Under the pieces are notes generated by a model that was not told the DNA's origin, ran no database searches, and worked only from the letters and a program-made list of their open reading frames with translations. From contig JALHOJ010000013.1 in NCBI GenBank assembly GCA_022843045.1, forward strand, positions 1-64,000: 64,000 nt of DNA, given 5' to 3'. Shown here in pieces: positions 28,423 to 35,468 of the stretch. This DNA comes from Phycisphaerales bacterium (GTDB lineage Bacteria; Planctomycetota; Phycisphaerae; Phycisphaerales; UBA1924). A program made the position numbers and the translations under genes. How positions within the stretch are numbered: the first letter of the stretch is position 1; every line of letters starts with the position of its first letter.

Positions 28423-30162
28423 TCAGGGCTGCTGTGCAAGGCGGGTACGGATGAGTTGATCGAAGTGGGCCCGAGTGTCGGTGAGCCCCGTACCACCCGC
28501 GTCGCCAAGCCACGCCTTCGACTGCAGCGCGGCTTGCTCGACAAACATCGTTGCACCGTCGATGGTCTGCCAGCCGGCCTCGCGGGCGGCGCGAATCGCG
28601 GCGGTTTCGAGCGGGTGGTAGATGGTCTCGATCAGCGCGACGCGGGGCGATGCGGGGCACTGCGTCATCGAGTCGATTGGCATGGCGGATCGCCCAGCGG
28701 TGTCGCCCATACCCACGCTCGTGCACTGGATGAACACGTCGCAGCAGGCCTTGGGCAATGCCTCCAGAGGCATCGAGACGATCTTGGGCGCGGCCTTGCC
28801 GGTACTCGCCAATCGCTCGCCCACGGCTTTCGCAAAGGGCTCGAGTCGCGAGGCGGCGGTCTGGGCTTTCTCGATGTCGCGGTTGTACAGCACCACGGTG
28901 CGCCCGAGCGACAGCCCGGCGAACGCCGCCGCGAGACCTGCGCCGCCCGCGCCGACGACGCCCACGCGCAGCGGCTCCGTCGCGACAATCCGTTGGGCCG
29001 CCAGTTCCAGGCAGTGCGCAAGCGCGGGGGCGTCGGTGTTGCAGACTTCACAGGTGAGCACTTGATCATCACGGTCACGCCGGACGATCAGCGTGTTCGC
29101 CGCGCCCGTGGCTTGTGTTGCGGCGTCCATGGTCCAGCCCGAAGCCTCGGCAAGGCGTGCCAGGTTCGCCTTGTGGGGCATCGTGACCGATGCGCCGCTG
29201 AAGGAGAGCGTGGGATGCTCGATGAGTTCCATCAACGCGGCCCGAAACGCCGCGAAGGAGAGATCGGCGTCTTCGTACCCCGCGATCGGCAGCGGCACAT
29301 ACACCGCATCTTCGTTCGCCCTCGCAAACGCGGCATTGTGCACCAAGGGCGAGAGAGAGTGCGCGACGGGATGCCCGATGATGCCGAAGACCCGCGTCTT
29401 TGGATTGATCGACTTGAATCGATACTGCTCGATCAGTTCGCGCAGCGTGGGCTGCCCCGGTGCGGTCGCTTGCTGCGGCCGCAGCGCGGCGAACGTCAGA
29501 AACGAACCGAACTTGGGCGCGAGGATGCGCGACAGCACGCCAAACTCGCCCATGCCCAGCGCGATCGTCGGCTTGGCGAGTTGCCGAGGCAGGTCGAGCA
29601 GCTCAAGGCTGTCATGCAGCGAGCGGGCGCGGTACGCGACCTTCACGATGCTCGCCGCGGATTCGTCGCGCATCGCGAGCACACGTCGGAGCAGGTCCGC
29701 GGGGCGGCCTTGGAAGTCATGCGTGGAGAGGACGAGCGAGGTCTTGAGGTCGCGGAGCTGCCGCGGGTGCTCGACGCACAGACGCACTTTCTGGGCAAGG
29801 TTCGCAGACCGCGAGAAGCTCGACCACTCCACATCCAGATATCGCGGCGGATGCTCGCTGGCGGCCGTCAGCTTCTCGAACAGGCTGATGCGGTCGGCGT
29901 CGTCAGCGTCATAATCGCCGCCCTCGCTCGCGACCCGGCAGGTCAGGATGCACGGGAGCGGCGAACGCTCAATCAAGTTGATCAGCTGAGCGACGATCGC
30001 AGCGTCGGCGTCGTCGCCGCCCGCGCTCTCGGAGGATGCGCCATGGAAGAACGAGTCGATCCGCCACTCGACGATCGTCGCGCCGTCACGCTTGGCCAAC
30101 GCAGCGTCCGCGAGGGCTTGGTCGACGCTCTCGACGGTGATGGGAACGCAGATCGCGGTCAT
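28423..30162 (-). CDS. aroDE: bifunctional type I 3-dehydroquinate dehydratase / shikimate dehydrogenase
   Basis: A 579-residue fusion catalysing steps 3 and 4 of the shikimate pathway. Residues 1-245: type I dehydratase with VEWRID, His148 in LSTHDF and the Schiff-base Lys174 in SIVKVAYRAR. Residues 255-575: shikimate dehydrogenase with HPVAHSLSPLVHN, catalytic Lys331 in VTMPHKANL, Asp377 in CNTDAPA and the NADP loop GAGGAG at 404-409. This order is the same as in plant DHQ-SDH and occurs in some planctomycetes and chlamydiae. The start at 30162 (MTAICVPITVESVDQALADA) was chosen over 30267. It follows the Minf_1886 gene by 10 bp. Confidence 0.94.
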   Translation of the reverse strand: MTAICVPITVESVDQALADAALAKRDGATIVEWRIDSFFHGASSESAGGDDADAAIVAQLINLIERSPLPCILTCRVASEGGDYDADDADRISLFEKLTAASEHPPRYLDVEWSSFSRSANLAQKVRLCVEHPRQLRDLKTSLVLSTHDFQGRPADLLRRVLAMRDESAASIVKVAYRARSLHDSLELLDLPRQLAKPTIALGMGEFGVLSRILAPKFGSFLTFAALRPQQATAPGQPTLRELIEQYRFKSINPKTRVFGIIGHPVAHSLSPLVHNAAFARANEDAVYVPLPIAGYEDADLSFAAFRAALMELIEHPTLSFSGASVTMPHKANLARLAEASGWTMDAATQATGAANTLIVRRDRDDQVLTCEVCNTDAPALAHCLELAAQRIVATEPLRVGVVGAGGAGLAAAFAGLSLGRTVVLYNRDIEKAQTAASRLEPFAKAVGERLASTGKAAPKIVSMPLEALPKACCDVFIQCTSVGMGDTAGRSAMPIDSMTQCPASPRVALIETIYHPLETAAIRAAREAGWQTIDGATMFVEQAALQSKAWLGDAGGTGLTDTRAHFDQLIRTRLAQQP

Positions 30163-30172
30163 GGGGCGCGAC

Positions 30173-30658
30173 CTAGTTGGAGGTGGGGAGATTGGGCTTG
30201 GAGGGAAGATCGACGAACGCGTCGTCGAAGCTGAAGACGTCGCGGAAGTCCTCGGCGCTGTCTTCATCGGTCTTGCGCATCATGCCGGCGTCGATCATCG
30301 CGAAGACGATCTTGCCGAAGTCCTCGGTGCCGCGGATGTGCCACTTCGCGAGGACAGTCTTGGCAAGCCGGCCGTACTGCCGCTGGGCGTAGTCTCGCAG
30401 GCCCAGGCAGAGCTGGCGGCCCGAAACGTGGCGCGACTCATCAACGCGCTGCAGCGACGCCTCATCGGCGGCGCGAAGCTTGGCCGGTTCCTCCCCATGC
30501 ACGCCCCGCGCGGTATACGCGAGACCCTCGCGCACAAACTCGTACGCGGCGATCGGGAATGGCCCGGCCTTCTGGCGTGCTTGGCGGAATCGGGAGTCGA
30601 GGTCGGTCACGGTCGTCGGTCCTGCGAAAACAAACTGCACACGATCACGCGTCGCCAT
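30173..30658 (-). CDS. Minf_1886 family protein
   Basis: A 161-residue protein matching the pattern of the Minf_1886 family: PFPIAAYEFVREGLAYTARG near the N-terminus, RHVSGRQLCLGLRDYAQRQY in the middle, then LAKWHIRGTEDFGKIVFAMI and KTDEDSAEDFRDVFSF. The family is widespread in planctomycetes and verrucomicrobia, with no known function. It is 10 bp upstream of aroDE, so the pair is probably co-expressed. Confidence 0.82.
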   Translation of the reverse strand: MATRDRVQFVFAGPTTVTDLDSRFRQARQKAGPFPIAAYEFVREGLAYTARGVHGEEPAKLRAADEASLQRVDESRHVSGRQLCLGLRDYAQRQYGRLAKTVLAKWHIRGTEDFGKIVFAMIDAGMMRKTDEDSAEDFRDVFSFDDAFVDLPSKPNLPTSN

Positions 30659-30812: not shown

Positions 30813-31553
30813 CTATTTCGCTTGCCGCGGCGCCCGCCAAGCCGAGCCGCGTTGCCTTGGCCTCTGCTGCAGAAGGACTTGGCGAAGACTGCGCGCGGAG
30901 CGCGGAAACGGCACGGACAGGCAGGGATGGCCCGCAACACCGAATCGCAGAAGCCTCCGCGACCAAACGTTACCCGAACCTATGCCGATGCGCGGGCCCA
31001 GGACGATGCGGTTGACGGATGCCGGGAGGACAGTTGAGCGTTCGATCCAGAGATCGGAATGGGTGACAAGGTCGATGCCGTTCTGATCACGAGCGATCTG
31101 CAGGGCTTCGCAAAGCCGCGCGGGCCCCGCACACAGGTCGCGATCGCGTTTCGCGCCAGGGCGATTCGCCCGCATCGCCTCAAGACCCTCGACTGGCTCC
31201 AACGCCCGAAGCAGCACCGCGACCGGTTCGTCGACCTCGCCGCAGACCACGTTGCAGCAGAAGTGCATGCCGTAGGTGAAGTAGACGTAGAAACTGCCCG
31301 CGGGGGCGTACATCACCTCATTGCGAGGCGTGCGCCGCCCGCCATAAGAGTGGCACGCGCGATCGCGAACCCCGACGTACGCCTCCGTCTCGACGATGGT
31401 GCCCGCGAGGCGTGTGCCATTGGGCAGCACGCGCACCAGCGAGCAGCCCAGCAACATCGGCGCGAGTTCCTCCGCCGGCCTGCGGAAGAACTCCCCATCG
31501 CAACGCCCGCGGCTCGATGCCTCGATGCCGGGCTGCCTCGCTGCCTTCTTCAC
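30813..31553 (-). CDS. DNA-3-methyladenine glycosylase (AAG/MPG family)
   Basis: A 246-residue protein. It excises alkylated purines in base-excision repair. Family motifs: LAGTIVETEAYVGVRDRACH with the catalytic Glu, YAPAGSFYVYFTYGMHFCCN, LLRALEPVEGLEAMRANR, LCAGPARLCEALQI and GPRIGIG. The last 30 residues are Arg/Gln-rich and exceed the family end. The start overlaps the stop of the TfoX-N gene (ATGA at 31550-31553), so the two are translationally coupled. Confidence 0.92.
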   Translation of the reverse strand: MKKAARQPGIEASSRGRCDGEFFRRPAEELAPMLLGCSLVRVLPNGTRLAGTIVETEAYVGVRDRACHSYGGRRTPRNEVMYAPAGSFYVYFTYGMHFCCNVVCGEVDEPVAVLLRALEPVEGLEAMRANRPGAKRDRDLCAGPARLCEALQIARDQNGIDLVTHSDLWIERSTVLPASVNRIVLGPRIGIGSGNVWSRRLLRFGVAGHPCLSVPFPRSARSLRQVLLQQRPRQRGSAWRAPRQAK

Positions 31554-31996
31554 GTCGACTTCCTTCGTGCCGAGCGCGGAGCAGGCTTGGCGGCTGGTTT
31601 CGAAGCCTTGCTCGCTGTCTTCTTCTTGGCGTTCTGCTTTGGCTTCGCGGCCTTGGCCGCCGAGCGTTTGGCCGGGCGCTGGCCGGCGTCGACGCCCAGC
31701 CGCGCCCAGGAGAGCATGGCTTCGCGATCATCGAGCGCGTCGTCGGGCAGGCGGGCGTAGTTCATTGTCTTGGCGGGCTGGTCCTTGAACGGCGCGAACA
31801 GGCTCGACCCCGCGGCGAGAAACCGCGGCAGCGTCGACTCGTTCACCTTGATGTAGAGTTGATCGTCGTCGATCAACGCGAAGATGGCGTTGTCGCAGTA
31901 GAGCGTGCGCCCGCCCATCATCGATCTGGCCTGGATCTGGCCCAGCGGGGCCAATTGTTCACAGATGAACTCGACGAACTCGTTGGAGACGGGCAT
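31550..31996 (-). CDS. TfoX/Sxy N-terminal domain protein with Lys/Ala-rich tail
   Basis: A 148-residue protein. Residues 1-100 match TfoX_N: VEFICEQLAPLGQIQARSMM, GRTLYCDNAIFALIDDDQLY and MNYARLPDDALDDREAMLSW. From residue about 105 a histone-like tail of Lys, Ala and Pro repeats (KAAKPKQNAKKKTASKASKP) follows. TfoX/Sxy regulates competence in gammaproteobacteria; single-domain TfoX_N proteins elsewhere have no proven role. The basic tail suggests DNA binding. It precedes the 3-methyladenine glycosylase with a four-base overlap. Confidence 0.82.
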   Translation of the reverse strand: MPVSNEFVEFICEQLAPLGQIQARSMMGGRTLYCDNAIFALIDDDQLYIKVNESTLPRFLAAGSSLFAPFKDQPAKTMNYARLPDDALDDREAMLSWARLGVDAGQRPAKRSAAKAAKPKQNAKKKTASKASKPAAKPAPRSARRKST

Positions 31997-32151
31997 GCAG
32001 AGATTCTTGGAGGGGCCGACTAGGCGGACTGCAGCATCGGTCGGAGGAATCGGCCAGTCAAGGCGCGACAACTCGCCAACACTGCTGCGTGCGTCACGGC
32101 GAAGCAACTTCAGCGGATGCGGGCGGCGCGAGCGTGCGTTGGAGTGGCGAC

Positions 32152-32886
32152 ATGACCATTCGGATCGCATGGGATGGCCAGGCAATCCCGACGGCACCAC
32201 CGCTCAGCGCCCAGCAAGTCGAGGCTCGCGTCGGCGCGGTTCGCGACGCAGTCGACGAGGCTTTGCGTGCGGGACTGCTTGAGGGTGTCGTCGATTGCCT
32301 CGCCAGCGCGACGGTGGTACAAGTCGTATGTGATCCGCGCAGCGATGCCCAATTGATCATGGCAGCCATGACGGCGATCGTGCGGGATTGCGTTCACAGT
32401 GATCAGGTAGCGGTCCACGCCCCGCGGCACATCTTGATCCCGGTTTGCTACGACCCGCGAGTCTGGTCCGTGGGACAGCATGCCACCACAGGCAACGATG
32501 CTGTTCGCGATTGGGCCCGCGACCTGGGTGACGTCGCGCGAGAATCCGCCTTGCCCATCGAGGACCTGATCGCGCAGCACGCAGACGCGACATATCGCGT
32601 CCAGTTCCTCGGCTTCGCGCCAGGCTTCGCGTATCTCGCCGGCCTGCCCTCGCGATTGCATGTCCCACGCCTTCCCTCACCCCGCCCCATGGTGCCCGCA
32701 GGATCCGTCGCAATCGCCGCGGGGCAAGCGGGCGTGTACGCGCTCGCCACGCCCGGCGGGTGGCGGGTGCTGGGGCGGACGCCGCTCGCGATGTTCGATG
32801 CGCGCCGCGGTGCGATGCTGCGGGCGGGGGATGCAGTGAGGTTTCAGCGGATTGGGTGGGAGCGATATGTCGAGATGATGGGCTGA
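32152..32886 (+). CDS. pxpB: 5-oxoprolinase subunit PxpB (KipI family)
   Basis: A 244-residue protein with the allophanate hydrolase subunit 1 signature: HILIPVCYDPRVWSVGQ (usually V-Y-D-x-x-x-G-x-D), YRVQFLGFAPGFAYLAGLP, LPSPRPMVPAGSVAIAAGQA and GVYALATPGGWRVLGRTP. With PxpA and PxpC it forms the ATP-dependent enzyme that opens 5-oxoproline to glutamate. GGAG lies 8 bases before the start at 32152. The fused pxpC-pxpA gene follows after 68 bp. Confidence 0.92.
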   Translation: MTIRIAWDGQAIPTAPPLSAQQVEARVGAVRDAVDEALRAGLLEGVVDCLASATVVQVVCDPRSDAQLIMAAMTAIVRDCVHSDQVAVHAPRHILIPVCYDPRVWSVGQHATTGNDAVRDWARDLGDVARESALPIEDLIAQHADATYRVQFLGFAPGFAYLAGLPSRLHVPRLPSPRPMVPAGSVAIAAGQAGVYALATPGGWRVLGRTPLAMFDARRGAMLRAGDAVRFQRIGWERYVEMMG

Positions 32887-32954
32887 TTGGACAATCAGTT
32901 GCTGGAAGTGAGGAATGCAACTGCAGGACGGTGAAGCGGCGAAACGGTGAACTC

Positions 32955-34754
32955 ATGCGAATGCGTGTGGTGCAACCTGGCGTGTGTGCGAGCGTGCAGG
33001 ACTTGGGGAGACCCGGGCTCGCAGGGATGGGCGTGCCGCGCAGCGGCGCGGCGGATGCGCTCGCGCTGCGCGTGGGTAATCGGCTGGTGGGCAATCCCGA
33101 CGACGCTGCGGCGATCGAGATGACGCTGGTAGGGTGCGAGCTCGCGTTTGAAGGCGAGCGAGACGAGGAGTGCTGGGTGGTGTTGGCGGGGAGCGGCCTG
33201 CGGGGCGCAGTGCTGCGTGCCGCACGCTCAAGCGACGGCGCGGATCGCGCGGTTGCGCCGTGGCAGCCCTTCATCGTTCGCGCGGGCGATCTTCTTCGAT
33301 GCGGCACGATGGCTGATGCCAGGCTGGGTGGCGGCGTCCGCGCGTACCTCTGCGTTCGCGGCGGGATCGATGTGCCCAGAGTCCTGGGCAGTCGCAGCAC
33401 GCACGCGCGGGCCGGCCTGGGCGGGCATGAGGGCCGGGTGTTGCGGGCGGGTGATGTTCTGAGCGTGTTGCCGTCGGTGCGAGAGAGCGAAGATGTGCGG
33501 CGGATGCCGGAGGCAGTGCCAGCGTTGCTTGGCGAACCTCCGCAGCCCCAGGGGCAGGCCACCTCCGGCCAAGCCACCACCATCTGGGTCACGCCCGGGC
33601 CGCACGCTGCGCTGTTTGTGCGTTCGCCCGGCGCGCTGCTGGATCACGTGGAGTTCACCGTGAGTTCCCGATCCGATCGCATGGGCGTGCGGCTTGAAGG
33701 CGTCGCGCTCCCCAGCCCGATGGGTCTCGCCGCGGGGGGCGGGCGTTTGGCGAGCGAGCCGATGCCGCGGGGTGCGATCCAAGTGCCGCCCGATGGGCAT
33801 CCGATCGTGCTGATGCCCGATGGACCGACGACGGGCGGCTATCCGGTGATCGCGACGGTGGCCAGCGTGCACGTGCCAAGGTTGGGGCGGCTTGGGCCCG
33901 GCGCCAAGGTGCGTCTGGTCTGTGTGGACGAGGCGCGAGCCCGCGCCGAGTGGCGGCGGGTCGAGAGCGCGCTCTCGCGGGTGCTGCCTGCCGTCGCAAG
34001 CGTCCTCATCAACGCCGACGTGGGCGAGGACCCCAGCGACGCAGGCATCGCACGGGATGCTGCGCTCATGGACCATCTGGACCTCATCCACGTCGCGTGC
34101 GGCGGACACGCGGGCGATGAACGCACAATGAGAAGCCTCGTGCGAACAGCCCAGGATGCGAGCGGGAGCCAGCGCCCTCGCACATTGCTGATCGGCGCGC
34201 ATCCCAGCTATCCCGACCGCGCGAACTTCGGGCGAGCGCGGATGCCCCTGAGCGCTGACGCGCTGCAAGCCAGCGTGCGCGAGCAGGTCGCCGCGTTGGT
34301 GCGCATCGCACACGAAGAAGGTGCGTCGGTGCGCACCATCAAGCCCCACGGTGCGTTGTACCACGACTGCGCGGACGCCAACATCGCGCGCGCGGTCGCA
34401 GACGGAGCGGCAGACGCGCTCGGCGTCGCGTTGCGATCCTGCTCCCTCGTCGGAGCCGCGGCGAGCCCGGCCATCGACCATTGGCGCGCCTTGGGCTGGG
34501 CGACGCTGGAAGAAGGCTTCGCGGATCGGACCTACCAACCGGACGGGACGCTCACGCCGCGCTCGCTCGCTGGAAGCGTGATCAATGACCCCGCGCGGGC
34601 CGCACGCCAAGCGCGGGCGCTGATCGACAGACGTGGCATGACACTCGGGCTCGACACGGGATTGATGCTGGGGGTCGACACGATCTGCGTGCACAGCGAT
34701 ACAGCAGGCGCGGTGGCCATCGCCCAAGCCGTCCGCAACCAAACGCGAGCGTGA
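32955..34754 (+). CDS. pxpCA: fused 5-oxoprolinase subunits PxpC and PxpA
   Basis: A 599-residue protein that joins two normally separate subunits. Residues 1 to about 345 are PxpC (KipA/allophanate subunit 2): VVQPGVCASVQDLGRPGLAG, GVRAYLCVRGGIDVPRVLGS, SSRSDRMGVRLEG, MPDGPTTGGYPVIATV. Residues 349-599 are PxpA (LamB/YcsF): LINADVGED, HVACGGHAGDERTMRSLVR, IKPHGALYHDCA, EGFADRTYQPDGTL and ICVHSDTAGAVAIAQAVR. The junction (ALSRVLPAVASVLINADVGE) has no stop and no internal ATG suitable for separate start. The start at 32955 was chosen over 32760, which overlaps pxpB. The hydrolysis product would be glutamate. Confidence 0.92.
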   Translation: MRMRVVQPGVCASVQDLGRPGLAGMGVPRSGAADALALRVGNRLVGNPDDAAAIEMTLVGCELAFEGERDEECWVVLAGSGLRGAVLRAARSSDGADRAVAPWQPFIVRAGDLLRCGTMADARLGGGVRAYLCVRGGIDVPRVLGSRSTHARAGLGGHEGRVLRAGDVLSVLPSVRESEDVRRMPEAVPALLGEPPQPQGQATSGQATTIWVTPGPHAALFVRSPGALLDHVEFTVSSRSDRMGVRLEGVALPSPMGLAAGGGRLASEPMPRGAIQVPPDGHPIVLMPDGPTTGGYPVIATVASVHVPRLGRLGPGAKVRLVCVDEARARAEWRRVESALSRVLPAVASVLINADVGEDPSDAGIARDAALMDHLDLIHVACGGHAGDERTMRSLVRTAQDASGSQRPRTLLIGAHPSYPDRANFGRARMPLSADALQASVREQVAALVRIAHEEGASVRTIKPHGALYHDCADANIARAVADGAADALGVALRSCSLVGAAASPAIDHWRALGWATLEEGFADRTYQPDGTLTPRSLAGSVINDPARAARQARALIDRRGMTLGLDTGLMLGVDTICVHSDTAGAVAIAQAVRNQTRA

Positions 34755-34835: not shown

Positions 34836-35468
34836 ATGCCACTGACTCGTGACCAACTTGCGATGCGTGCCGCCAAGGAACTCCGCGATGGATACATCGT
34901 GAACCTGGGCATCGGGATTCCCACCCTCGTCGCGAACTACGTCCCCGCCGGCATGGACGTCTGGCTGCAATCCGAGAACGGCCTGCTGGGCATCGGCCCC
35001 TTCCCGCGCGAGCACGAAGTCGACGCCGACCTCATCAACGCCGGCAAACAAACCGTCACCGCCCGCCCCGGCGCAAGCTTCTTCAGCAGCAGCGACTCCT
35101 TCGCCATGATCCGCGGCGGCCACATTGACCTATGCATCTTGGGCGCGATGCAGATCAGCCAGGAAGGCGACATCGCCAACTGGATGATCCCCGGCAAAAT
35201 GGTCAAGGGCATGGGCGGCGCGATGGACCTCGTCGCAGGCGTGCGCAAGGTCATCGTGACCATGGAACACACCGCCAAGGGAACACCCAAAATCCTCAAG
35301 CAATGCAACCTGCCGCTCACGGGCCGCCGCTGCATCGACATGGTCATCACCGACCTCTGCGTCCTCGAAATGGACCACACCAAACGCCGCTTCAAACTGA
35401 TCGAACTGGCCCCCGGCGTGACGAAGGACGAAGTCTTGAAGGCGACGGAAGCCGACATCATCGCATGA
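34836..35468 (+). CDS. scoB: 3-oxoacid CoA-transferase subunit B
   Basis: A 210-residue protein. The catalytic glutamate lies in [15 protein letters not shown]; other family motifs are [38 protein letters not shown] and [20 protein letters not shown]. Subunit B pairs with subunit A to move CoA from succinyl-CoA to acetoacetate or similar acids. No subunit A lies in the window: the gene follows the 5-oxoprolinase genes after 81 bp and is followed by repeats. The start at 34836 ([20 protein letters not shown]) is standard. Confidence 0.92.

Follow-up and report, generated by a model that had tools for sequence, protein, structure and literature searches.

A pxpC-pxpA fusion gene beside a separate pxpB: a predicted two-polypeptide 5-oxoprolinase with evidence for repeated origin of the join

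5-Oxoprolinase converts the dead-end compound 5-oxoproline to glutamate. The window analysed here, a 64,000-nucleotide stretch of a draft genome of a Phycisphaerales bacterium, carries pxpC and pxpA in what appears to be a single gene, which raises the question of whether the two are truly joined, how the join came about and what it would mean for the enzyme. The published scheme assumes that PxpB and PxpC use ATP to phosphorylate 5-oxoproline and assigns ring opening and dephosphorylation to PxpA (PMC13274462). PxpBC and PxpA may equal the two components of the older P. putida enzyme, one of which hydrolyses ATP while ring opening depends on the other (PMC8453981). A study by Li (1988), cited in PMC13274462, bears the title 'Substrate-dependent enzyme complex formation'.

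The locus lies on contig C13 of a 4.08 Mb draft genome in 147 contigs that is 91% complete. Pfam domain profiles placed pxpC and pxpA in one frame in the order C-A, with pxpB separate upstream, in agreement with the original prediction; the start given there, 32152, is that of pxpB, the ATG of the fused gene being at 32955, and the rest of that observation was exact (Table 1). CT_A_B (PxpC) covers residues 25-321 of the fused protein (E 1.7e-78; 264.3 bits against a gathering score of 25) and LamB_YcsF (PxpA) covers residues 351-596 (E 4.3e-63; 213.6 bits against 22). The pxpB product matches CT_C_D with 168.8 bits (gathering score 22.1), and its stop is separated from the fused gene by 68 bases. 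The B, C and A domains each occur once in this genome and are encoded together at the pxp locus, so that no separate partner is left beside the fusion.

Table 1. Features of the pxp locus, in positions of the window
Feature	Position	Strand	Basis
pxpB, separate gene, 244 aa, CT_C_D	32152..32886	+	Pfam PF02682, E 1.5e-49
pxpC-pxpA fused gene, 599 aa, ATG start, TGA stop	32955..34754	+	one open frame, both domains
PxpC part, residues 1-343, including C-terminal helix 326-343	32955..33983	+	Pfam CT_A_B, TIGR00724, model
In-frame GTG, codon 343	33981..33983	+	start scan
Junction, residues 344-350	33984..34004	+	stop scan; alignment with seven other fused proteins
PxpA part, residues 351-599	34005..34751	+	Pfam LamB_YcsF; conserved motifs

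Several neighbouring genes were also recorded. Divergent from pxpB is a gene for a TfoX N-terminal domain with a Lys/Ala-rich C-terminal tail (31550-32200, minus strand). A 614-aa frame at 28423-30267 (minus strand) joins a type I 3-dehydroquinate dehydratase to a shikimate dehydrogenase in AroD-AroE order, both parts being under the NCBIfam equivalog cut-offs. The pxp genes are followed by an orphan gene for 3-oxoacid CoA-transferase subunit B (PcaJ/ScoB; 34836-35468, plus strand), which is over the TIGR02428 cut-off. Apart from it, the genome has a single CoA_trans match, a subunit A on a different contig (G000:C36:31449-32168), so that the two genes, usually paired as A-B, are apart here.

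The stop-to-stop frame of the fusion comprises 740 codons with zero internal stops, and the codon-position G+C pattern is unchanged through the junction. A stop scan found all three forward frames to be stop-free across 33848-34117. In an AlphaFold2 model of the fusion (mean pLDDT 88.8) the last PxpC helix spans residues 326-343 and the first PxpA strand residues 351-356, leaving about seven linker residues; this bears out the position of the junction, near residue 345, that had been predicted. Foldseek matched the PxpC part to the PxpC structures 5dud and 3mml (E. coli YbgK and M. smegmatis; target-normalised TM 0.89-0.90) and the PxpA part to the LamB/YcsF structures 1v6t, 2xu2, 2dfa and 1xw8 (0.84-0.86).

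Relatives were sought in 163 genomes of the window's family, 57 of which had a match, and their loci were sorted by the B, C and A profiles. At most other loci of the family the three genes are separate and arranged B, C, A. PxpC and PxpA share one frame in eight genomes from six genera (the window's genome, G189, G090, G349, G411, G414, G397 and G331), scattered among unfused pxpB>pxpC>pxpA kin and with differing linkers. The PxpC-PxpA order was thus found in seven further genomes of the family, as well as in nine of a second phylum described below. G416, in which the open frame is of equal length, was rejected as a fusion, as its pxpC stops ahead of pxpA. Among the window's closest kin, pxpC and pxpA are unfused in the two congeners that have the genes (G282 and G299) and in the sister branch G392-G394. 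One of these congeners has pxpB and pxpC fused in one 558-aa frame (L090 1966-3639, plus strand) with pxpA separate, and G355 likewise has B and C fused; in the other congener, G299, pxpA is on a different contig. The original prediction had counted separate C and A in all close relatives against the fusion. They are separate in the congeners and in G392-G394, though not in all close relatives, which points to a recent and recurrent join rather than to its refutation. In four loci of the family (L080, L070, L069 and L117) pxpC and pxpA are separated by a gene that, judged by its sequence, encodes an MFS-type transporter; it is possibly the operon's 5-oxoproline importer.

A tree was built on the C and A domains with the linker omitted, and nearly all fused genes adjoined unfused ones on it. 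The fused label required eight changes over nine fused rows, at least six of them forced by well-supported branches, although such counts by themselves cannot separate gain from loss. The observed eight changes were no fewer than shuffling gives, the mean for shuffled labels being 8.5. Forcing the eight family fusions into one clade lowered the log-likelihood by 516 (AU p 5.4e-92), and with this single clade rejected by the AU test, one ancestral fusion lost many times was also rejected. From the sequences we conclude that the PxpC-PxpA join is not ancestral and was made several times separately in the window's family. Within genus g19, it is possible that G403 represents the re-splitting of a fusion. 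The difference between G403 and G411 (97 and 96 nt) was considered as a one-base junction change, and DNA alignment showed no simple change of this kind.

The junctions themselves differ. The distance from domain to domain in fused genes is 54-162 nt, and the sequences between are unlike one another. In most unfused kin the two genes overlap at NTGA, and pxpA starts in a different frame, one base ahead of the pxpC stop codon; the pxpC stop lies 24-96 nt past the end of its domain. In the sister-branch genome G394, which has the NTGA overlap, 86 nt separate the domain ends, as compared to 57 nt in the window, a net loss of 29 nt. As the 86-nt spacing and NTGA overlap in G392-G394 stand against 57 nt here, the event that formed the window's fusion was probably a small deletion and not a point mutation.

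To place the join more widely, we examined 80 named bacterial and archaeal loci, picked as best matches, of which one, L152 (MAG SKS5.bin58), is a C-A fusion. Nine genomes from the phylum of SKS5.bin58, here called the G784 clade, carry a PxpC-PxpA fusion at 68-100% identity and stand beside unfused kin. Their fusion lacks the C-terminal helix of PxpC and has the two domains directly adjoining (ITFVPVRTIDLNADLGEG), and its origin on the tree is separate. Three of the four pairs compared gave dN/dS ratios of about 0.05-0.22 across the junction (where computable), indicating that the fused form is under purifying selection. No fusion was found in samples of Pseudomonadota (162 genomes with a match; 12 full-length in-frame matches, each with an internal stop) or of the Acidobacteriota phylum (95 genomes with a match; six such matches, each with an internal stop), although both zeros are rough because some matches are urea carboxylases and a long-linker fusion could split into two matches. 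Sinorhizobium fredii pNGR234b, a candidate one-piece full-length match, has separate pxpC and pxpA. PxpB-PxpC fusions are present in 22 of 105 related loci, urea-carboxylase-type proteins included. The view that PxpA, PxpB and PxpC are normally three polypeptides therefore holds as far as the C-A join is unusual and fails for PxpB-PxpC fusions, which are common. The literature that we found does not mention a PxpC-PxpA fusion; that search was without the founding paper (Niehaus 2017) and the Pfam architecture tables, and an earlier database listing is possible.

Against family models the three parts of the window's system scored unevenly. The PxpC part passes TIGR00724 (245.1 bits, cut-off 230.2) and misses the NCBIfam equivalog NF045499 for PxpC (171 bits, cut-off 500); the latter cut-off is narrow, since an ordinary Paenibacillus PxpC falls short of it too (276 bits). 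PxpB reaches 136.5 bits with TIGR00370, slightly below the cut-off of 145.55. PxpA is below all NCBIfam PxpA cut-offs (NF003812-NF003816), the nearest being 193 against 226 bits. The PxpA motifs NADxGE, ACGxHAGD, GAHPSYPD, KPHGALY, FADRxY and CVHSD are present, and PxpA retains 41 of the 47 columns that show at least 93% conservation elsewhere, including D355, E358, H385, H416, H465, D524, R525, H580 and D582. The six deviations are D351L, S377L, N379H, H461T, N470H and A541S; N470H is typical of the window's family, and the other five are not general there. PxpA of genus g19, whether fused or unfused, is changed at four of the window's deviating positions. The g19 loci L061, L062, L063, L104 and L109 encode PxpA without the conserved D351, N353, N379 and H461 (window numbering), and these losses suggest an altered active site in g19.

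Could the single frame be an assembly or base-calling error in which two genes were read as one? The draft state of the genome and the separate genes of the nearest relatives speak for such an error, and a single stop-to-sense substitution is possible in principle, the Trp codon at 33957 being one candidate site. However, with all three frames stop-free around the junction and the pxpC stop of unfused kin falling so close behind its domain, no single indel would restore the end of pxpC; a one-base indel error is thus no explanation for the join. The 29 nt missing relative to the sister branch, and the same domain order, stop-free, in the seven other genomes of the family and the nine of another phylum, also argue against an error, which we consider very improbable. 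It is less far-fetched, though still improbable, that some or most PxpA is translated on its own from the GTG at 33981, in which case the operon would behave much like three polypeptides. This GTG is in frame, lies eight codons ahead of the PxpA domain and was the sole start codon near the junction that could yield a whole separate PxpA; moreover, the gene overlap couples translation in unfused kin. Inspection of tcgagagcgcgctctcgcgg, upstream of the GTG, found no clear ribosome-binding site for it, and the fused genes of G189 and G090 have no in-frame start within 27 codons ahead of the PxpA domain, so that their protein must be a single chain.

A further alternative is that the substrate of the fusion and PxpB is a different lactam or amide, or that the PxpA part is losing activity. 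The substitutions D351L, N379H and H461T at otherwise conserved positions, the similar pattern in a clade of genus g19 that includes fused and unfused proteins, and the scores below the PxpA cut-offs are consistent with this alternative, as is the membership of urea carboxylase and allophanate-related proteins in the PxpC and PxpB families. On the other hand, most other PxpA motifs are intact and the frame is open, and the G189 fusion scores over the cut-offs of TIGR00724 and of two PxpA subfamily models (NF003814 and NF003816). We regard this alternative as unlikely. Given its six PxpA deviations and the missed NCBIfam PxpA and PxpB cut-offs, a shifted substrate or lowered activity is possible for the window's copy, which would have no bearing on whether such fusions work elsewhere.

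Our preferred interpretation is that the real pxpC-pxpA fusion, together with the separate PxpB, constitutes a working ATP-dependent 5-oxoprolinase in two polypeptides. We consider this likely, with the activity inferred from sequence. PxpB would pair with the PxpC part, and 5-oxoproline would be phosphorylated; the PxpA part, held by a short linker behind the last helix of PxpC, would then open the ring and release glutamate. The tether would stand in for the meeting of a PxpBC complex with free PxpA, and the halves could not part. It would also set PxpC and PxpA at 1:1, as had been predicted; the one-chain architecture supports this ratio, which holds only if GTG 33981 yields no separate PxpA. 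The ancestor would have been a pxpB>pxpC>pxpA operon with pxpC stop and pxpA start overlapping at NTGA. A small deletion probably took out both the stop and the start and brought the frames into register, with joins arising separately in other genera too. Such recurrence could reflect either selection for the join or merely a junction prone to fusing. That the join was favoured repeatedly in the window's family, and once in another phylum, because the tether passes on a short-lived phosphorylated intermediate or keeps PxpBC and PxpA together, is a tentative and rather doubtful suggestion.

As in the three-subunit PxpABC of Bacillus subtilis and Corynebacterium glutamicum, the window has all three domains once each in one operon; unlike there, PxpC and PxpA form one chain and PxpA is substituted at conserved positions. 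The PxpB-PxpC fusions (Thermus TTHA0988, PDB 3OEP; congener G282) are also subunit fusions in the same enzyme family, but they join both phosphorylating subunits, whereas the window joins C to the ring-opening A and leaves B free. The G784 clade shares the window's domain order and has pxpB upstream and separate, differing in the missing PxpC helix, the abutting domains and the separate origin. In the eukaryotic 5-oxoprolinase OplA, too, the halves that carry out the ATP-dependent reaction are fused, as compared to the two-subunit caprolactamase CapAB (PMC8453981). OplA sequences are unrelated to the window's fusion (PMC13274462, PMC8453981), and the likeness is an analogy only.

The C-A order is unusual, but its parts were already known, and its recurrence is the more interesting point. 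A chain linking the PxpC C-terminus to the PxpA N-terminus limits the possible position of PxpA, and the near-zero-length linkers in the G784 clade and in G090 leave that position little freedom. For structural studies, single-chain versions would make the complete complex easier to trap, and the repeated fusions beside unfused sisters provide a set of natural comparisons. If the tether does act as proposed, these natural fused and unfused sister enzymes would be a ready experiment on assembly of the PxpABC complex.
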